Source of the DNA: an uncultured Pelagibacteraceae bacterium
GTDB taxonomy: Bacteria; Pseudomonadota; Alphaproteobacteria; Pelagibacterales; Pelagibacteraceae
Direction: 5' to 3'
Assembly (NCBI GenBank): GCA_902517535.1
Contig: CABYCK010000006.1
Span: 1 to 51,737, forward strand
Length of the DNA: 51,737 bases
The position numbers were made by a program, and so were the translations under genes. Position 1 is the stretch's first letter. Each line of letters opens with the position of its first letter. The notes under the pieces were generated by a model. It was not told the origin of the DNA and ran no database searches. It saw only the letters and a list, made by a program, of their open reading frames with translations. This document shows positions 18,846-37,438 of the stretch, piece by piece.

Positions 18846-20576
18846 ATGTTTAAAACATTTAAAACAATTCTAGCTATTGCTGTTTCTTTTTCAATCGTAA
18901 CTATTTCTTCTGCATTTGCAGACGGTCATATGGCTGCAATTAAGAAATGGTCTAATGGGGAATTTAGTCTTTCAGTTCTATCTGCAAAAGATAGAGAAAA
19001 AGAGCTACAATGGTTCCACGATGCTGCTAAGCCATTCAAAGGAATGTCTTTAAAAGTAGTATCTGAAGGAATACCTACCCATGTGTATGAGTCAAAAACT
19101 CTTACAAAAGCGTTTGAAGAGATAACTGGCATTAAAGTACAACACCAAATCATCGGAGAAGGTGATGTTGTAATGGCTGTTCAAACACAAATGCAAACGA
19201 ACGTAAGTATTTACGATGCGTATGTAAACGACTCAGACTTAATTGGTACGCACGCGCGTATGCAACAAGCTGTAAATTTAACTGACTGGATGAAAGGCGA
19301 GGGTAAAGCTGTCACTAATCCAATGTTGGATTTAGATGACTTCATAGGACTTCAATTTACTACGGGTCCTGATGGAAATCTTTATCAACTTCCAGACCAA
19401 CAATTTGCTAACCTTTATTGGTTCAGAAAAGATTGGTTTGACAGACCAGAAATCCAAAAAGCATTTAAGAAAAAATATGGTTATGATTTAGGTGTTCCAG
19501 TAAACTGGTCTGCTTATGAAGATATAGCTAAATTCTTTTCAGAAGATGTTAAAGAAATCGATGGCGTAAGAATATACGGCCACATGGACTACGGTAAAAG
19601 AGCTCCCGACTTAGGTTGGAGAATGACTGATGCGTGGCTATCAATGGCTGGTGCAGGAAGTAAAGGACTACCGAATGGAGTTCCAGTAGATGAATGGGGA
19701 ATAAGAATGGAACCAGGTTCTTGTAATCCAGTTGGTGCTAACGTATCAAAAGGTGGAGCTACAAATGGTCCAGCTGCTGTATACGCAATTAGAAAATGGG
19801 ATGAATGGTTAAGACAGTATGCACCTCCAGGTGCTGCAGCTATGGACTTTTACCAGTCTCTACCATCATTATCTTCAGGAAACGTTGCTCAGCAAATTTT
19901 CTGGTACACAGCTTTCACAGCATCTTTAGTAGGAAAAGATCCTAATAATAAAGTTGTTGACGCAAACGGTATGCCATTATGGAGAATGGGACCTTCACCA
20001 AAAGGACCATATTGGGAACAAGGTATGAAGCTTGGTTATCAAGACGTTGGATCATGGACTTTATTTAAGTCTACTGACGTTGAGAGAAGAAAAGCTGCAT
20101 GGTTGTACGCTCAATTTGCTGTTTCAAAAACAGTATCTCTTAAAAAAGCTGATGTTGGTATAACATTTGTGAGAAAAAGTACTATTAATCACAAACACTT
20201 TACTAAGAGAGCGCCTGAACTTGGCGGACTTGTAGAGTTCTATAGATCAAAAAACAGAAATGTTTGGTCACCAACAGGTGTCAACGTTCCAGATTATCCG
20301 AAGCTAGCACAATTATGGTGGCAGCATATAGGAGAAGTTAACTCTGGCACATTTACTCCACAACAAACTATGGATCGTCTTGCAGAGGAGATGGACCTAG
20401 TTATGTCTCGTATGGAAGCTGCTGATAAAAAAAGCAATGCATACGGTGGATGTGGACCAAGACTTAATAAAGACAGAGAAGCGTCTTATTGGTTAAATCA
20501 AAAAGGTTCGCCAAAAGCTAAAGTTAACGAGAAACCTCAAGGTAAAACCGTAGCATTTAAAAACGCTTGGAAGTAA
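18846..20576 (+). CDS. glpV: Glycerol ABC transporter substrate-binding protein (GlpV-like)
   Basis: The 576-residue protein begins with a signal peptide (basic MFKTFKT, hydrophobic core, cleavage likely after SSAFA before DGHM) and is a large periplasmic family 1 solute-binding protein. Its length, Trp-rich body and Cys-containing C-terminal region (AYGGCGPRLNKDREASYW) fit the GlpV glycerol-binding proteins described for the rhizobial glpSTPQV transporter. Two ATPases, two permeases and the DUF2160 protein follow in the expected set, with glpK upstream. It has the strongest ribosome-binding site in the window and an intrinsic terminator right after the stop, as expected for an abundant binding protein. 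Specificity for glycerol is inferred from context. Confidence 0.88.
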   Translation: MFKTFKTILAIAVSFSIVTISSAFADGHMAAIKKWSNGEFSLSVLSAKDREKELQWFHDAAKPFKGMSLKVVSEGIPTHVYESKTLTKAFEEITGIKVQHQIIGEGDVVMAVQTQMQTNVSIYDAYVNDSDLIGTHARMQQAVNLTDWMKGEGKAVTNPMLDLDDFIGLQFTTGPDGNLYQLPDQQFANLYWFRKDWFDRPEIQKAFKKKYGYDLGVPVNWSAYEDIAKFFSEDVKEIDGVRIYGHMDYGKRAPDLGWRMTDAWLSMAGAGSKGLPNGVPVDEWGIRMEPGSCNPVGANVSKGGATNGPAAVYAIRKWDEWLRQYAPPGAAAMDFYQSLPSLSSGNVAQQIFWYTAFTASLVGKDPNNKVVDANGMPLWRMGPSPKGPYWEQGMKLGYQDVGSWTLFKSTDVERRKAAWLYAQFAVSKTVSLKKADVGITFVRKSTINHKHFTKRAPELGGLVEFYRSKNRNVWSPTGVNVPDYPKLAQLWWQHIGEVNSGTFTPQQTMDRLAEEMDLVMSRMEAADKKSNAYGGCGPRLNKDREASYWLNQKGSPKAKVNEKPQGKTVAFKNAWK

Positions 20577-20595
20577 CCTGGGTTTAACTTAATTT

Positions 20596-20622
20596 AAAAG
20601 GGGGCATTTTCTGCCCCCTTTT
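20596..20622 (+). terminator. Intrinsic terminator / attenuator after glpV
   Basis: An 11-bp perfect stem (arms 20596-20606 and 20612-20622, core GGGGGCA/TGCCCCC) with a 5-base loop is followed by a T run. It lies 19 bases after the glpV stop and 27 bases before glpS. It is the most GC-rich element nearby and a textbook rho-independent terminator. In an ABC operon it probably lowers transcription of the transporter genes relative to the binding protein and protects the upstream mRNA. Confidence 0.9.
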
Positions 20623-20649
20623 TTTAAAACTAAATTATAAATTATAAAT

Positions 20650-21714
20650 ATGAGTTTAGAATTAAAAAATGTTGAAAAAAAAGTAGGAATTGACACTCAT
20701 ATACACCTAACCAATCTAAAATTAGAAAAAAATACTATTAATGTTTTACTTGGCTCAACTTTAGCAGGAAAAACAACTTTAATGCAAATTATGGCTGGTT
20801 TAGATAAACCAACAGCTGGTGAAATTTGGTTTAATGGTGAAAACGTAACTGGTAAAGAAGTCCAAAAAAGAAATTGTTCAATGGTTTATCAACAATTCAT
20901 TAATTATCCAAATTTTACAGTTTTTGAAAATATTGCATCACCTTTAAAGATAACTGGCATTAAATCTGATGAAATAAAAGAAAGAGTTGGAAAAGTTGCA
21001 GAACTTTTAAAATTATCAGCAATGCTTAATAAAAAACCAGATGAACTATCTGGTGGCCAACAACAAAGAACAGCTTTAGCAAGAGCGTTAGTTAAGGATT
21101 CAGATCTAATATTATTAGATGAGCCGTTAGCAAACCTTGATTTTAAATTGAGAGAAGAACTTAGAGAAGAGCTACCAAAACTATTTGAGGATAGAGACTG
21201 TATTGTTGTATATGCAACTACTGAACCTCAAGATGCATTAATGATAGGTGGAAATACGGCTACATTATTGGAAGGTAAAGTCATTCAATATGGAAAAACA
21301 CTAGACGTTTATAGTAAACCTGAAAATTTAACCTCAGCTAGAGTATTTAGTGACCCGCCAATGAATATTGCCGATATAAATAAAAATGGAGAAATATTCA
21401 AAATAGATAATAATAACGTAGAATGGAAATCAAATCTTAAAATCAAGGATGGAAGATATAAGATAGGTATAAGACCTCATAATATTACAACATATAAAGA
21501 AGGAAATAACTCAGTTGAAATTAATGGAAAAGTATTAATTTCAGAACTAAGTGGATCTGAAAGTTTAATACATTTTACAAATGGAAAACTTAATTGGGTT
21601 TCATTATCTAATGGCATTCAATCAAAAAATATTGGTGAAGAAACTAAATTATATATGAATATCGATGAATTTTTATACTTTGATCATAACAACAGATTGG
21701 TAAATCATGGCTAA
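20650..21714 (+). CDS. glpS: Glycerol ABC transporter ATPase 1 (GlpS-like)
   Basis: This is one of two different ATPase subunits of the glycerol importer. The 354-residue MalK-type protein has Walker A GSTLAGKT (35-42), Q-loop in MVYQQF, intact signature LSGGQ (133-137), Walker B LILLDE (D157, E158), and a C-terminal regulatory OB-type domain from about residue 230. The switch His after strand 8 is replaced: the usual VTHD reads ATTEPQDA (T191). The intact signature therefore serves the partner's nucleotide site, while its own site is probably slow. It starts after the terminator and overlaps glpT by 8 bases. Confidence 0.92.
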   Translation: MSLELKNVEKKVGIDTHIHLTNLKLEKNTINVLLGSTLAGKTTLMQIMAGLDKPTAGEIWFNGENVTGKEVQKRNCSMVYQQFINYPNFTVFENIASPLKITGIKSDEIKERVGKVAELLKLSAMLNKKPDELSGGQQQRTALARALVKDSDLILLDEPLANLDFKLREELREELPKLFEDRDCIVVYATTEPQDALMIGGNTATLLEGKVIQYGKTLDVYSKPENLTSARVFSDPPMNIADINKNGEIFKIDNNNVEWKSNLKIKDGRYKIGIRPHNITTYKEGNNSVEINGKVLISELSGSESLIHFTNGKLNWVSLSNGIQSKNIGEETKLYMNIDEFLYFDHNNRLVNHG

Positions 21715-28876: not shown

Positions 28877-28895
28877 GTAAATAATAATCATTATC
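28877..28895 (+). promoter_or_regulatory. Fur-like box 2 upstream of iron transporter
   Basis: This second 19-base site also matches the classical Fur consensus at 16 of 19 positions and has the full right half ATAATCATTATC. It begins 27 bases after the start of box 1 and ends 16 bases before the fbpA ATG. The ribosome-binding sequence GGAG at 28904-28907 lies between it and the start codon. Binding here would block transcription initiation or early elongation when iron is plentiful. In alphaproteobacteria the regulator could be Fur/Mur or another family member. Confidence 0.72.
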
Positions 28896-28911
28896 AAAAA
28901 AATGGAGTAAA

Positions 28912-29931
28912 ATGAAAAAAATATCAATAATTGTAAGCACTATATTATTTGCTTTTGTGTCAAATTTATTTGCTAATGAAGTAAACATATTTAGTGCAAG
29001 ACACTATGACTCAGATGTTCAACTGTATGAAAAATTTACAGCTAAAACAGGTATTAAAGTGAATGTAATATCTGGAAAATCTGGGGCTTTAGAGAAAAGA
29101 ATAATAGAAGAAGGAACTGATAGTAAAGCTGACCTTTATATTACAGCAGATGCAGGAAGGTTAGGTGCATTTGAGTCAAATTTACAAGGCGGTCTTACAA
29201 GTTCTGCTATCAAATCAGTAGTTCCATCTAACTTTAGAACATCTAAATGGGTTGGGATAGCGAAAAGAGCAAGGATAGTTTATTTTGCTCCAGAAAGAGT
29301 TAGTGGCGCCGAACTATCTGGTTTAACTTATGAAAGTTTAGCTGATCCAAAATGGAAAGGCCGAATAGTAATTAGAGCTTCAAATAATATTTACAACCAA
29401 TCACTAGTGGCTTCATTAATTAAAAACAATGGAAAAGGAAAAATTGCAGAGTGGTCAAAGGGAATGGTTGCTAATATGGCTAGAGCTCCAAAAGGTAATG
29501 ATAGAGCTCAAATTCTAGCTGTAGCAGCAGGAGAGGCTGATATAGCGGTTGCTAATACATACTATTTAGCTCTAATGTTGTCAGGAAAAAAAGGACCAGA
29601 GCAACAAGCCGCTGCAAAAAAAGTAAAACCATTTTTTCCTAACCAAGATGGGAGAGGAACTCATATGAATATTAGTGGGGCAGGCCTAGTTAAAGGGGCA
29701 CCTAATAAAGACAATGCAATTAAATTAGTGGAATTTTTATTAAGTGAAGAAGCACAAAATCACATAGTAAATAATACATTCGAATATCCAATGATTGCAG
29801 GAATTTCTCCTCATCCACTTGTTGTGAACATGGGATTGGATTTTAAGCAAGATCTCAAAACTAAAGTTGTAAATTACGGAAAAAGACAAGCCGACGCTTT
29901 AGAAGTAATGACAGCTGCAGGATGGAAATAG
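28912..29931 (+). CDS. fbpA: Iron(III) ABC transporter substrate-binding protein (FbpA/FutA-like)
   Basis: The 339-residue protein has a signal peptide (KKISIIVSTILFAFVSNLFA, cut before NEVN) and begins its mature part with VNIFSARHYDSD, where H31 and Y32 fit the iron ligands of FutA-type proteins. The twin Tyr of the ferric-binding family is seen in ANTYYLALM (Y217, Y218). It would bind ferric iron in the periplasm and deliver it to the permease encoded downstream. Two Fur-like boxes precede it. The stop is followed 18 bases later by a small ORF and a nested hairpin, not directly by the permease. Confidence 0.92.
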   Translation: MKKISIIVSTILFAFVSNLFANEVNIFSARHYDSDVQLYEKFTAKTGIKVNVISGKSGALEKRIIEEGTDSKADLYITADAGRLGAFESNLQGGLTSSAIKSVVPSNFRTSKWVGIAKRARIVYFAPERVSGAELSGLTYESLADPKWKGRIVIRASNNIYNQSLVASLIKNNGKGKIAEWSKGMVANMARAPKGNDRAQILAVAAGEADIAVANTYYLALMLSGKKGPEQQAAAKKVKPFFPNQDGRGTHMNISGAGLVKGAPNKDNAIKLVEFLLSEEAQNHIVNNTFEYPMIAGISPHPLVVNMGLDFKQDLKTKVVNYGKRQADALEVMTAAGWK

Positions 29932-29949
29932 TTAACGTTTGTTAATTCT

Positions 29950-30120
29950 ATGAGGCGAATAACCAAAAAAAAAATCAACTTAAATAAGTTGAAAACCGGT
30001 TGTTCGCCTTGTATGAGGGAAGCTGAATTAATGAAACAAAAAATTTCAAATAGAAATTTGTCAGAAATAAAGATAAATGAGATTAAAGATATCGTTTCAT
30101 CAATTTTTAAAAAAAATTAA
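29950..30120 (+). CDS. 56-residue CxxC protein in the iron transport operon, unknown
   Basis: An ATG at 29950 opens a 56-codon frame: MRRITKKKINLNKLKTGCSP, then CMREAELMKQKISNRN, then a predicted helix ending DIVSSIFKKN. It contains one CxxC (CSPC, residues 18-21) and no signal peptide or membrane helix. The stop TAA shares its last base with the permease ATG (TAATG), so the frame is placed exactly as a coupled gene would be. A long open frame is also unlikely by chance in such AT-rich DNA. The first codons overlap a strong nested hairpin. The CxxC suggests metal or redox chemistry near iron import, which is inference. I do not recognise a family. An untranslated leader is the alternative. 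Confidence 0.55.
   Translation: MRRITKKKINLNKLKTGCSPCMREAELMKQKISNRNLSEIKINEIKDIVSSIFKKN
29953..30009 (+). other. Nested RNA hairpin between fbpA and fbpB
   Basis: The outer arms 29953-29964 (AGGCGAATAACC) and 29998-30009 (GGTTGTTCGCCT) pair over 12 bp with a single G-U wobble. Inside, 29975-29981 (TCAACTT) pairs with 29986-29992 (AAGTTGA) around a 4-base loop. No T run follows, so it is not a simple terminator. It begins just after the ATG of the 56-residue ORF. It may stabilise the fbpA part of the mRNA or regulate translation of the downstream genes. Confidence 0.65.
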
Positions 30121-31736
30121 TGAATAAATACAATTTTTGGTTTTTTAGCACTTTTACTATCGCATTAATTGTCACTCTACCAATTATCACAGTTTTTTTT
30201 AGTTTTTTTTCGGAGACTAGTAATTATTTTGTAATATTAAAAAGTACTTTTCTTTTTGATTATATAAATAATTCTTTATTAATTTTAATTTCAGTTTTAT
30301 TTATAACTTTTTTAGTGGGTGTAATATCTGCGTATTTTATCTCATTTTATGAGTTTCCATTATGTAAGTTTTTTAGCTGGGCACTGATTTTAGCTTTCGC
30401 AATTCCTGGTTATATATTTGCTTTTTCTATAATAGCATTTTTTGAAAATTACGGAACCGCCTACTCAATTCTTACAAATATCTTTGGAGAGCACAATTAC
30501 AATCCTATTATTCCAAAACTTGACGGAGTTCTAGGCTCTATTATTTCTATTAGTTTTTCATTATTTCCCTATGTATATGTTTTAACTAGGTCTTCCTTTT
30601 TTTTTCAATCAAACAATTATATTGAAGTTGGCCAAAATCTTGGTCTATCTGAAAAGGAAACTTTTTTAAAAATTATACTACCTTCAGCAAGACCAGCTAT
30701 AATTGCAGGGTTAGCTTTAGTTGCAATGGAGTGTTTATCAGATTTTGGAACAGTATCTATTTTTAGTGTATCGACGTTAACCACTGGCATATATAATTCA
30801 TGGATTTCTTTTGATGATCTTAATTCAGCAAATCAAATTTCATTTGTACTGCTGATATTCATATTAACTCTTTTATCCATAGAGATTTATTCTAGAAAAG
30901 AAGCAAAATATCATCAACCAGGAAGAGGATTTAAACCTATTAATAAAATTAAATTAAGTGGAAAAAAAGCATTATTGGCTTTTTCTTTTTGCCTGCTTGT
31001 TTTTTTAATAAGTTTTGTATTTCCAGTTTCACAGATGATATATTGGACATTTAAATTTCCAAAATATATTCAAGATATCGACCTTCTCAAGATTAACTTA
31101 AATACTTTATATTTAGTTGGCCTAGCAAGTTTAGTTTTAGTAATCATTTCTTTATTTATTAACTATGGAACCAGAATTTCTAAAAGTAAAATTCTAAATT
31201 ATTTAACAAATTTTTCTATTTCAGGATATGCTATTCCAGGAGTGATTTTAGCAGTAGCTTTCATTACTTTGTTTTCAAATTTAAGTGATTTAATTAATGA
31301 AAATACTAATATTGGTAGTATTAAAAAAGTATTTATTGGTTCTATATTTGGTCTGATACTTGCTTATTTTATCAGGTTCTTTTCTCTATCTTTCAATGGA
31401 ATAAAATCTAGTTATGAAAAAATAAATAATTCTATTGATGAAAGTGCTTATTTGCTTGGCTATTCAAAAATGAAAACATTTTCAAATATTCATATTCCAT
31501 ATCTTAAAAATAATATTATATTGATTGTTGTTCTTATCTCTTTAGAAATTATTAAAGAGTTGCCTATAACAATGATACTCAGGCCTTTTAATTTCGAAAC
31601 GTTTGCAACCCAAGCTTATATTTATGCTTCTCAAGATTTAATAGAGGCGGCAGCTCTACCCTCATTATTTTTGATTAGTTGGTCTACAATATTAATTTTA
31701 TTTTCTTCAAAATATATACTTTCACAAAAAAATTAA
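30120..31736 (+). CDS. fbpB: Iron(III) ABC transporter permease (FbpB-like)
   Basis: The 538-residue protein is a fused double permease with about twelve hydrophobic helices, as in FbpB/SfuB, where both membrane halves are in one chain. Two EAA-type loops are visible: IEVGQNLGLSEKETFLKIIL followed by PSAR near residue 180, and ESAYLLGYSKMKTFSNIHIP near residue 440. It would carry ferric iron from FbpA into the cytoplasm. Its ATG shares a base with the stop of the small CxxC ORF. The ATPase gene follows after 12 bases. Confidence 0.92.
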   Translation: MNKYNFWFFSTFTIALIVTLPIITVFFSFFSETSNYFVILKSTFLFDYINNSLLILISVLFITFLVGVISAYFISFYEFPLCKFFSWALILAFAIPGYIFAFSIIAFFENYGTAYSILTNIFGEHNYNPIIPKLDGVLGSIISISFSLFPYVYVLTRSSFFFQSNNYIEVGQNLGLSEKETFLKIILPSARPAIIAGLALVAMECLSDFGTVSIFSVSTLTTGIYNSWISFDDLNSANQISFVLLIFILTLLSIEIYSRKEAKYHQPGRGFKPINKIKLSGKKALLAFSFCLLVFLISFVFPVSQMIYWTFKFPKYIQDIDLLKINLNTLYLVGLASLVLVIISLFINYGTRISKSKILNYLTNFSISGYAIPGVILAVAFITLFSNLSDLINENTNIGSIKKVFIGSIFGLILAYFIRFFSLSFNGIKSSYEKINNSIDESAYLLGYSKMKTFSNIHIPYLKNNIILIVVLISLEIIKELPITMILRPFNFETFATQAYIYASQDLIEAAALPSLFLISWSTILILFSSKYILSQKN

Positions 31737-31748
31737 TATAATAGTTAA

Positions 31749-32819
31749 ATGTCAAATCATTTTTTCGAAATCAAAGAAGGTAACTTTGTTGCTAGTGAAA
31801 AAAATAAAGTCAATGGCGTTAATCTTAAGATAGAAAATAAAGGAGAAATAGTATCTTTATTAGGTCCATCTGGAGTTGGCAAAACAACTATTTTAAGAAC
31901 TATTGCTGGTCTTCAAAAACTTTATTCTGGTGAAATTTTTCTTAATAATAAATTAATTTCTTCAAACAATACTCACATTGAACCAGAGAAGAGAAATATT
32001 GCTTTGTCTTTTCAAGACAATTCTTTGTTTCCTAATTACAAAGTAATAGATAATATTAATTTTGGTAAAAAAAGATCTAATGGAAATGATTTTGTATATG
32101 AAGCAGATGACATTATTAAATTACTTCATATAGAGTCTATTTTAGAAAAATTTCCTCATCAAATAAGTGCTGGAGAAGCTCAAAGAGTGTCTTTAGCAAG
32201 ATCACTTATGTCGAAACCTGATTTATTATTACTGGATGAGCCTTTTTCAAATATAGATCAAAGTTTAAAAGATGAAATTCAAGTTTCTGTTAAAAAACTT
32301 TTAAAAGAGTTTAATTTAACAACAATAATTGTGACTCACGACTCTTACGAAGCTTTCTCAATGGCAGATAAATGTGGAATTATTTTAAATCAAGAATTAA
32401 AACAATATGACGTACCTTATAATGTTCATCATGAGCCTAACTCAATTGAAATAGCTAATTTTCTAAACAAAGGTGTATTTATTGATGTTAAAGTTGTCGA
32501 CAGTGAATGTGCTGTACATAGATTGAATCATAAAGAGTTAGGTGAGATCAGAGGGAAATTATCAAACAATTTTCCATCTGGAACAAAAGTAAAATTACTT
32601 TTACAACCCGAAGATTTAATTCACGACGATCAAAGTAAACTAAAATTGGAAGTTGTGGATAGGAAATTTAGAGGTACTAATTTTATTTATACTTTAAAAA
32701 CAAAAAATGGCGAACATTTACCAGTTTTTGTTCATTCTCATCATATTCATCAACATGAAAAATCTGAAAAATTTGGTATTAAATCTCCGATTTATATTGA
32801 CCATTTGGTATGTTTTTAA
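31749..32819 (+). CDS. fbpC: Iron(III) ABC transporter ATPase (FbpC-like)
   Basis: The 356-residue ATPase has Walker A GPSGVGKT (39-46), Q-loop in LSFQDNSLFPN, Walker B LLLLDE (D163, E164), and switch His in IIVTHDSYEA. The signature reads ISAGE (139-143, in HQISAGEAQR) rather than LSGGQ but keeps the functional Ser and second Gly. The C-terminal regulatory part (from about 240) ends with a His-rich stretch, VHSHHIHQHEK, unusual and possibly metal-binding. It would homodimerise under FbpB. tRNA-Arg begins 24 bases after its stop with no terminator between. Confidence 0.92.
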   Translation: MSNHFFEIKEGNFVASEKNKVNGVNLKIENKGEIVSLLGPSGVGKTTILRTIAGLQKLYSGEIFLNNKLISSNNTHIEPEKRNIALSFQDNSLFPNYKVIDNINFGKKRSNGNDFVYEADDIIKLLHIESILEKFPHQISAGEAQRVSLARSLMSKPDLLLLDEPFSNIDQSLKDEIQVSVKKLLKEFNLTTIIVTHDSYEAFSMADKCGIILNQELKQYDVPYNVHHEPNSIEIANFLNKGVFIDVKVVDSECAVHRLNHKELGEIRGKLSNNFPSGTKVKLLLQPEDLIHDDQSKLKLEVVDRKFRGTNFIYTLKTKNGEHLPVFVHSHHIHQHEKSEKFGIKSPIYIDHLVCF

Positions 32820-35141: not shown

Positions 35142-36188
35142 ATGATTAAATCAATTAAAAATTGGATTTTAGTTGTTCTTGCTTCTTCTTTGCTTGTGGC
35201 TTGTGGCCAAGGTGGCGGAGGATCTGGATCAAAAAAATCTAAAACTTTAGACAACACTAAAAAAGCTGGTTTTGTGAAATGTGGAGTTTCACAAGGACTT
35301 CCAGGATTCTCTAACGCAGATGAGTCTGGAAATTGGACTGGTATAGATGTTGATGTATGTAGAGCTGTTGCAGCCGCTGTTTTAGGTGATGCTGACAAAG
35401 TAAAATACACTCCATTAAGTGCTAAAGAAAGATTCACTGCTTTAACATCTGGTGAAATCGATGTATTAGCACGTAACACAACTTGGACATTATCTAGAGA
35501 TGCTGACATAGGTTTAACTTTTGTTGGTGTTAACTTTTACGATGGTCAAGGTTTCATGGTTAGAAAAAATTCTGGAATCAATTCAGTGAATGATTTTAGA
35601 GATGGTATATCTGCTTGTACAAATACAGGTACGACAACTGAGCTAAACATGAGAGACTTCTTCAATTCTAAGAACATTAAGTACGAACCAATTGCGTTTG
35701 AAAAAGCAGACGAAGTAGTTCAAGCTTATGATGCTGGAAGATGTGATACTTATACGACTGACAAATCTGGATTAGCTGCTCAAAGAACAAAATTGAGTGC
35801 ACCGGACGATCACAAAGTATTACCTGAAACAATTTCTAAAGAACCACTAGGACCTGTTGTAAGACAAGGTGACTCAGTTTGGGAAGATATTGTTAGATGG
35901 TCTCTAAACACAATGATCGAAGCAGAAGAATATGGTGTTAATTCATCAAACGCTTCAAGCCTTAAAGACTCTGATAACCCTGCTATTAAAAGATTAGTTG
36001 GTTCTGAGGGTGAATTAGGTGCTGCATTTGGTCTTGACAATGAATGGAGCTTAAGAATTATCGAGCAAGTTGGTAATTATGGTGAAAGCTACAAAAAACA
36101 TATAGCTGACACAAACATTTTACCAAATAGAGGTCCAAATGAGTTATGGACTAAAGGTGGAATACTTTACGTACCACCAGCAAGATAA
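35142..36188 (+). CDS. aapJ: General L-amino acid ABC transporter substrate-binding protein (AapJ-like), predicted lipoprotein
   Basis: The 348-residue protein is a family 3 solute-binding protein of the AapJ type, with VKCGVSQGLPGFSNADESGN, the ligand Arg region VLARNTTWTLSRDADIGLTF, and the Cys pair CTNTGTTTELNMRDFF / GRCDTYTTDKSGLAAQR. AapJ delivers a broad range of L-amino acids to AapQM. Unusually, the N-terminus ends in a lipobox (LLVAC, Cys21) followed by a Gly/Ser-rich linker, so it is predicted to be lipid-anchored rather than free in the periplasm. It has a strong Shine-Dalgarno, a palindrome-rich leader, and a terminator after the stop, all signs of high and regulated expression. 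Confidence 0.92.
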   Translation: MIKSIKNWILVVLASSLLVACGQGGGGSGSKKSKTLDNTKKAGFVKCGVSQGLPGFSNADESGNWTGIDVDVCRAVAAAVLGDADKVKYTPLSAKERFTALTSGEIDVLARNTTWTLSRDADIGLTFVGVNFYDGQGFMVRKNSGINSVNDFRDGISACTNTGTTTELNMRDFFNSKNIKYEPIAFEKADEVVQAYDAGRCDTYTTDKSGLAAQRTKLSAPDDHKVLPETISKEPLGPVVRQGDSVWEDIVRWSLNTMIEAEEYGVNSSNASSLKDSDNPAIKRLVGSEGELGAAFGLDNEWSLRIIEQVGNYGESYKKHIADTNILPNRGPNELWTKGGILYVPPAR

Positions 36189-36202
36189 TTGCTGAAAAAA
36201 TT

Positions 36203-36232
36203 AAAAAGGGCTGGATTTATCTGGCCCTTTTT
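36203..36232 (+). terminator. Intrinsic terminator / attenuator after aapJ
   Basis: A 9-bp stem (AAAAAGGGC at 36203-36211, GCCCTTTTT at 36224-36232) with a 12-base loop ends in a run of T. It lies 14 bases after the aapJ stop and 27 bases before aapQ, the same position as the hairpin after glpV. It probably sets a high ratio of binding protein to membrane components. Confidence 0.85.
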
Positions 36233-36259
36233 TTTATTCTCAATTATATTCCTCATTAA

Positions 36260-37438
36260 ATGAATTTAAAAAATTTAAAACTTAATTTAAGCAATAAAAA
36301 TAAGGATTTAATACCCCAAGTTTTGACGGTATTACTTTTAATTTTAGTTGTTATTTATTTTACAATAAACGCTCAAAGTAACATGGGAAACAGAGGAATT
36401 TCTTTTGGTTTTGGTTTTCTTTCTCAAGAATCGTCGTTTGATATCACTTTTTCATTAATAGATTACGATGGATCTCATTCTTACGCTAGAGCTTTTTTAG
36501 TAGGTTTACTAAATACTATTTTAGTTTCAGCAATAGGTATATTTTTTGCAACAATACTGGGAGTAACAGTTGGTATAGGGAGACTATCCCAGAATTACTT
36601 AATTGCTAAGGCCGCAGAGTGTTACGTGGAAATATTTAGAAATATACCTTTAATATTACAAATTTTCTTTTGGTACTTTGCAGCTTTAAGGGCCCTACCT
36701 TTAACAGTAGACTCGATCAATTTTTATGACATTAGCTTTTTAAATGTAAAAGGGTGGTACGTTCCAAGGTTTATTTGGACGAATTTTTCAATATTCTTTT
36801 ATTCAATTATTTTAGCGATTATTTTGATAATATTTTTGACAAAATACGCTAGAAAACAAAGAGATGAATTTGGTAAACAATTACCAATTCTTTACATATC
36901 TTTTGGTTTGTTAATCGTTCTACCATTGCTTACTTTTTTATTTGGTGGCGTAAGTTTGTCATTTGAAATTCCTGAATTAGAGCAATTGTCCAAAACTGTT
37001 TATGTCTACAAAGGTGGAGTTAGTATAATACCAGAGCTAATTTCTCTTGCATTAGCACTGTCAATGTATACTGCTACATTCATAGCGGAAAATGTTAGAG
37101 CAGGAATACTTGGAGTAAACAAAGGTCAAAAAGAAGCAGCTGCATCGATTGGCTTAACAAAAGGTCAAATTTTAAAATTAGTAGTTATGCCCCAAGCATT
37201 AAGAATAATTATTCCTCCAACAACCAACCAATATTTAAATTTAACAAAAAATTCATCATTAGCAGCTGCTATAGCTTATCCAGATATAGTATTAGTTTTT
37301 GCTGGAACTGCTTTAATGCAAACAGGCAGAGCAATTGAAATAATTTCTATTACAATGCTTACATACCTATCTTTAAGTTTATCAATTTCAGTTTTTATGA
37401 ATTGGTATAATAAAAAAATGGCCATTAAGGAAAAATAA
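36260..37438 (+). CDS. aapQ: General L-amino acid ABC transporter permease (AapQ-like)
   Basis: The 392-residue membrane protein is the first permease of the Aap system, longer than ordinary polar amino-acid permeases, as is normal for AapQ. It has about eight hydrophobic helices, VEIFRNIPLILQIFFWYFAA near residue 125, and a C-terminal EAA loop, GQKEAAASIGLTKGQILKLV. It begins 27 bases after the terminator. The final base of its stop is shared with the aapM ATG. Confidence 0.92.
   Translation: MNLKNLKLNLSNKNKDLIPQVLTVLLLILVVIYFTINAQSNMGNRGISFGFGFLSQESSFDITFSLIDYDGSHSYARAFLVGLLNTILVSAIGIFFATILGVTVGIGRLSQNYLIAKAAECYVEIFRNIPLILQIFFWYFAALRALPLTVDSINFYDISFLNVKGWYVPRFIWTNFSIFFYSIILAIILIIFLTKYARKQRDEFGKQLPILYISFGLLIVLPLLTFLFGGVSLSFEIPELEQLSKTVYVYKGGVSIIPELISLALALSMYTATFIAENVRAGILGVNKGQKEAAASIGLTKGQILKLVVMPQALRIIIPPTTNQYLNLTKNSSLAAAIAYPDIVLVFAGTALMQTGRAIEIISITMLTYLSLSLSISVFMNWYNKKMAIKEK

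Follow-up and report, generated by a model that had tools for sequence, protein, structure and literature searches.

A probable CxxC small-protein gene and an overlapping RNA hairpin in the iron(III) transporter operon of SAR11 bacteria

The window analysed here, a stretch of 51,737 nucleotides from a SAR11 draft genome (865 kb, 34 contigs), carries on its forward strand a ferric-binding SBP gene of the sfuC/fbpA type (28912..29931), whose PDB relatives with E <= 1e-10 were nearly all named as iron- or ferric-binding (best E 2e-93). Family searches identified an ABC permease gene of the sfuB type (30120..31736, 538 residues, BPD permease match) and an ABC ATPase gene of the sfuA type (31749..32819), both on the same strand. 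Between the SBP and permease genes lies, exactly as a sequence-only reading of this DNA had claimed, a frame of 56 codons for a CxxC small protein (MRRITKKKINLNKLKTGCSPCMREAELMKQKISNRNLSEIKINEIKDIVSSIFKKN; 29950..30120, forward strand; ORF and comparative evidence), with its ATG at 29950, 18 bases past the SBP stop codon, and its TAA at 30118-30120. The one CSPC motif that had been announced was found at codons 18-21 (30001..30012, forward strand). No good Shine-Dalgarno sequence was seen before the small-gene ATG in the window.

A motif scan located a Fur-like box upstream of the SBP gene (TAATAATCATTATCA, 28882..28896, no strand assigned), with one mismatch to TGATAATNATTATCA, which we take to be the Fur box consensus and against which the box was scored. 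Such a box, with at most three mismatches, was present upstream of the SBP gene in all of the 80 named loci (the best 80 of 514) and was exact in 53, against a background of 4-6 mismatches for the best match in 321 of 344 blocks of 150 bases from the window. In iron-limited Ca. P. ubique HTCC1062 the sfuC, sfuB and sfuA transcripts were reported to rise 16-, 10- and 5-fold, and sfuC was proposed as a marker of SAR11 iron limitation; in the 2010 expression table of that work sfuB and sfuC bear the consecutive tags SAR11_1237 and SAR11_1238, with no gene numbered between them (PMC2864753).

Homologues of the small gene were searched in SAR11 and beyond. With tblastn at E <= 0.1, 256 of 397 genomes of the family gave a match, those near the limit including chance ones. 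A profile built from 45 members matched 189 of 297 genomes of the order at the same threshold, all but three in the same family, and these three matches were in other frames, or short and weak. In the class search 23 of 289 genomes matched, the convincing ones being the window's own genome and one other of the same family (G003); outside the family these 289 genomes gave fragmentary or chance-like matches only (best E 0.0028, within a 946-residue frame). One match from another family of the order (G405, E 9.7e-5) was rejected as a homologue, lying within a 233-residue frame on a contig different from that of its SBP locus. Among the genomes searched, convincing members of this small protein family thus appear to occur only in SAR11. 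In the SAR11 loci that were read, homologues lay between the SBP and permease genes, the position at which conservation had been proposed for checking by tBLASTn.

The 80 named SAR11 loci, the best 80 of 514 confirmed, were fetched by SBP alignment alone and so were not chosen for the small gene. A profile match lay between SBP and permease in 49 of them, with none in 31; by class, 44 copies were intact, five were short, split or cut, and 31 loci were without. All 188 classed loci comprised 130 intact copies, 11 broken or cut ones and 47 loci with none, many of the 188 having been picked because they matched and at least 24 occurring in both sets, so that counts include duplicates unless called distinct. 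L004 (G273, window's genus) is identical to L219 (AG-430-K10) over the copy and the 100 bases before it. The isolate Ca. P. ubique HTCC9565 (L162) carries the gene. When the presence (any copy) or absence of the small gene was mapped on a FastTree tree built from 162 distinct SBPs, at least 18 changes were needed, and the gene's distribution is therefore patchy. The SBP was also searched in 30 genomes that had given no clear full match: 18 had an SBP match at E <= 1e-20 and 12 had none. In 16 of those 18 the 700 bases past the SBP held no such frame, although L128 shows a remnant; the other two, L130 and L131, have a divergent copy with CxxxCxxC (CKKGCKTC) in that spot.

Eleven of the 188 loci were called broken by rule, of which L061, L068, L069 and L179 were taken as near-full divergent variants with partial profile coverage and L149 is cut by the contig end; truly truncated or frame-shifted copies number about six (L034, L042, L044, L144, L193, L220). 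L155 was classed as intact although it is without an early start codon, and ACG replaces the small-gene ATG at two distinct loci, L045 (= L182) and L048. A tblastn search at E 0.001 did not pick up L061, L064 or L068; matches of the family-wide search in G330 and G156 coincide with L061 and L064. Since 31 of the best 80 transporter loci lack a copy and about six of 188 have a damaged one, transport does not need the small gene. Homologous spacers gave a mixed answer to the sequence-only reading: some are without the frame and most without the coupled stop, while full frames keep both the CxxC and codon-level constraint.

This constraint was estimated as pooled Nei-Gojobori dN/dS over pairs differing at no more than 25% of sites; because the same pairs recur along the tree, the values are estimates and not tests. 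For 61 distinct copies of the window's type (three of these, L033, L053 and L063, belong to other types and were excluded from the RNA counts), dN/dS was 0.16 overall, 0.24 in codons 1-21 and 0.11 in codons 22-54, outside the hairpin described below, against 0.97-2.49 in the shifted frames. A second type (CxxCxxxC, 29 copies) gave 0.31, with 0.80 and 2.31 in the shifted frames. The proposed dN/dS comparison across homologues thus revealed codon-level constraint (0.16 and 0.31 versus 0.80-2.49), and the claim that the frame is open beyond chance held, with homologues at the same place. We conclude that the window frame is very probably a real protein-coding gene of SAR11.

The CxxC was kept in all 99 distinct peptides of at least 50 residues, a count favoured by the profiles used to recognise copies, which contain the CxxC themselves. 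The motif was CSPC in 69, CDPC in 10, CAPC in seven and of other kinds in 13; exactly two cysteines were present in 70 of the 99 and CxxCxxxC in 28. In an alignment of 34 sequences (A4), C18 and C21 were invariant, and N12, P20, E24, R35, K41, E44 and I48 nearly so. The truncated copy of L044, shorter than 50 residues and outside the 99, has FSPC, with Phe in place of the first cysteine. The motif also survives where the hairpin arm has been rewritten (CVIC in L143, CSTC in L009); part of its DNA conservation in the window's genus may nevertheless stem from the RNA, its codons being in the 3' arm.

Family and structure searches gave the small protein no relatives. No significant match was obtained in Pfam or NCBIfam for the window protein and the 45 members, and nothing significant in a PDB sequence search. 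AlphaFold2 predicted helices at residues 19-31 and 42-53 and no strands (pLDDT 74.5, pTM 0.43), so that the C-terminal helix claimed earlier is plausible at modest confidence; a PDB fold search with this two-helix model returned no match at E <= 10. Three comparisons with known families were made. The 45 members reached 15 Pfam families at E <= 1, and FeoC, presumably PF09012, was not one of them. BFD-like [2Fe-2S] domains, which we take to be PF04324, have four cysteines in CxC and CxxC; this candidate was rejected, the window protein having two cysteines and no such Pfam match. The thioredoxin-like TIGR00412/ArsE family shares a CxxC followed by a helix, and a sub-threshold likeness was seen in 17 of the 45 members (best E 0.0018), but the window protein scored 16.8 bits against a cut-off of 62 and its model, at modest confidence, is without the strands of a thioredoxin fold; this assignment was rejected as well.

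The first 21 codons coincide with an RNA structure that the sequence-only reading had not mentioned. From folding and pair counts, its 5' arm (29949..29964) includes the start codon, its 3' arm (29998..30013) overlaps the CSPC codons, and an inner hairpin (29975..29992) is formed by 29975-29981 pairing with 29986-29992, all on the forward strand. The fold of 29945-30022 has -27.1 kcal/mol (z -7.2), a value reached by 0 of 200 shuffles. In the 58 window-type sequences, 92.0% of cells were paired and nine of the 23 pairs had changed on both sides; 0 of 500 shuffles paired as well and slid versions paired in 36-48% of cells. The long stem's innermost pair (columns 18-52) was open in 37 of the 58. 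As an automatic consensus RNAalifold, run on 61 sequences (three of other types included), returned the short inner hairpin only and counts against the long stem, whereas it is backed by pair counts and by folds of single sequences. When synonymous codons were randomised, no more than two of 200 versions folded as stably in 53 of the 58 copies, and the synonymous difference pS was lower in codons 1-21 than in codons 22-54 (0.35 versus 0.49, from different sets of pairs). In L009 both arms have changed together, with one amino acid in each (MSR, CSTC). Given such compensatory changes, the first 21 codons in the window's genus are most probably also a conserved RNA hairpin.

The protein and the hairpin can each occur without the other. 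In genus g3 the arms have been rewritten (L143 versus L147 and L151) with both cysteines kept; copies in other lineages are without a strong hairpin (L178, L185, L187, L215, L216; z >= -1.5); L045 and L048 keep the stem although the ATG is lost; and the damaged copies L144 and L220 still have a hairpin at that place (z -4.0 and -6.3). The 100 bases past the SBP stop reached z < -2 in 24 of 27 NLN-type loci (the majority of the window's type, though L148, L151 and L159 belong to others). The same held for 11 of the 20 remaining copies and for 16 of the 29 distinct loci that have none, compared with 11 of 76 controls inside the SBP gene and four of 74 downstream, four of the 80 loci having been dropped as duplicate or too short. 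A hairpin past the SBP gene is thus commoner than in the controls, is not universal and occurs with and without the small gene. A purely RNA element as the full explanation was rejected by the codon-level constraint outside the hairpin. No U-rich tract follows the stem in the window, where the 3' arm is followed by UGAGGGAAGCUG, and an intrinsic terminator was rejected there for this reason. Elsewhere in the window, two further genes that look SBP-like by eye are followed by a hairpin with a U-tract resembling an internal ABC-operon terminator: 36186-36262 (z -4.4) after 35142-36188, and 20574-20655 (z -1.9) after 18846-20576.

The slot between SBP and permease holds other elements in some relatives. 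Of the 188 classed loci, 13 have a flavodoxin gene placed after the small gene and before the permease; all 13 carry intact copies, and four are duplicates of others. Ten of the 188 have a Prx-like gene in the slot (five with intact copies, one classed as broken, four without the small gene). Slot genes of the flavodoxin kind (PF00258) occur in L014, L016, L018, L023, L025, L029, L031 and L088, and of the Prx-like kind (Redoxin, PF08534) in L069, L141 and L142; three flavodoxin or Prx-like slot proteins were typed by Pfam.

At the Rfam gathering score, the potC RNA (RF01751) lies directly 3' of the small gene in L186 (7230-7296), L157 (3065-3129) and L154 (3140-3204), followed by a permease or peroxiredoxin gene in sfu-type operons. 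RF01751 had no match in the window at this score, stayed below it in L177, L178, L161, L185 and others, and gave none at E <= 0.5 in 13 further loci; the same UUACCC loop nevertheless caps a hairpin in several of these loci. A permissive rule, which admits a few chance cases such as L142 and L187, found UUACC-loop hairpins in 29 of 158 distinct spacers. The UUACCC loop is complementary to a GGGUAA just before the permease start, and this motif pair was observed in 14 distinct cases among 186 loci, including the sfuC-sfuB spacers of L177, L178, L185, L043, L061, L063 and L070. The pair possibly forms a pseudoknot that Rfam's model of potC does not include; those loci get no score from that model. 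Like the hairpin of the window, potC RNA is a hairpin in the SBP-permease slot of SAR11 sfu-type operons, there following small-gene homologues; unlike it, potC RNA has the loop UUUACCC and lies outside the coding frame. In 2010 it was tabulated as an orphan, marine only (PMC2864571).

CxxC motifs occur widely in proteins that bind metals or Fe-S clusters or carry out thiol redox chemistry. Because of this background, the operon context and the precedent of FeoC, we infer an iron or thiol accessory role, and our tentative first choice (probability about 0.45) is a gene under Fur control that is not essential, encodes a cytosolic CxxC accessory to the SfuABC Fe(III) importer and overlaps a stem-loop that tunes expression. 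The operon would be under Fur control, and the small protein would be produced together with the importer when iron is limiting. A cytosolic protein of two helices, it would bind iron or another thiol-loving metal through the CxxC at the start of helix 1, or cycle as a thiol, and would act, like FeoC, as a helpful but dispensable accessory, either dealing with iron as it enters or adjusting the transporter. The stem-loop just past the SBP gene would tune the SBP dose relative to the permease, and might also gate small-gene translation, since the AUG sits in the stem. FeoC is an Fe-S cluster protein that shields FeoB against FtsH (PMC10710835); it resembles the protein described here as a small, cytosolic (here predicted) product of an iron-importer operon, but it serves the ferrous importer FeoB, whereas this protein, of about 56 residues and usually two cysteines, accompanies a ferric SBP-ABC system. 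The interpretation in the sequence-only reading is partly supported, by a real gene without a named family, its strongly constrained CxxC, the shared operon position, the Fur-like box and the redox genes in the slot of some relatives; the metal or redox role itself is a proposal.

A different weighting, possible though rather unlikely, would make the RNA hairpin the main function, acting through stability, processing or attenuation to set how much SBP there is relative to permease, with the protein as a minor passenger. The compensatory stem changes favour it, including L009, where two amino acids change too, as do the stem that stays in the two ACG loci, the hairpins of the damaged copies, the excess of z < -2 in distinct SBP loci without the frame and the hairpins after the other two SBP-like genes. 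In Clostridia, stem-loops downstream of the SBP gene set ABC stoichiometry (PMC9045158), and the window likewise has a stable stem between SBP and translocator genes; here, unlike there, the stem is inside a conserved coding frame, covers the AUG and is without a U-tract. The lowest dN/dS, however, belongs to the codons outside the hairpin, and five of the copies named above keep the protein without a strong hairpin. The stop codon raises another reading: in the window the small-gene stop and the permease ATG share one A, at 30120, so that the TAATG of the sequence-only reading is correct, and a small frame of this kind could be a leader that brings ribosomes to the permease start, its peptide inert. 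Shine-Dalgarno matches of at least four before the permease are indeed rarer at gaps of up to 12 bases (1 of 31 loci, versus 32 of 95 with larger gaps, a weak comparison because the loci are related and partly duplicate). The overlap is no defining feature of the family, though, as the gap is -1 in only five of 81 loci (few close relatives, with the frame-shifted copy of L090 among them) and negative in 16, and in 60 of the 81 loci the distance from the small gene to the permease is 46-114 bases (52 copies) or over 500 (eight copies), yet the protein is conserved. Coupling as a conserved function was rejected on these widely varying gaps, and a leader, which would need no conserved C-terminal half, is distinctly improbable.

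The protein might instead be a mini-redoxin, a thiol-redox partner of the peroxiredoxin or flavodoxin that shares its slot and not an iron handler. The PF08534 and PF00258 genes and the weak TIGR00412 likeness point that way, but a score so far under the cut-off and a model without strands argue against a thioredoxin fold, neither partner adjoins the small gene in 112 of the 130 intact loci, and we consider the idea improbable. The hairpin 3' arm encodes the CxxC, and in the window's genus a self-regulating dual element can be imagined in which the CxxC peptide would sense cytosolic iron or redox state, bind its own mRNA hairpin and adjust permease versus SBP, as potC RNA would in the same slot of sister lineages; we regard this as highly improbable. 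The Fur-controlled accessory with its overlapping stem-loop remains the reading we prefer.

A literature search by title and abstract start found no paper on the small gene, which is apparently unnamed and without a named family. An earlier study excluded intergenic regions with a conserved protein-coding region and cites an additional file (PMC2704228), whose list may contain the small frame. The position of potC RNA beside sfu-type operons gives this orphan an iron-uptake context, and the link suggests that this cis-regulatory RNA may respond to iron or peroxide. SAR11 bacteria are among the most abundant marine heterotrophs, and a conserved small protein with an overlapping RNA structure is a concrete candidate for tuning iron import, or for handling imported iron, in a minimal genome.
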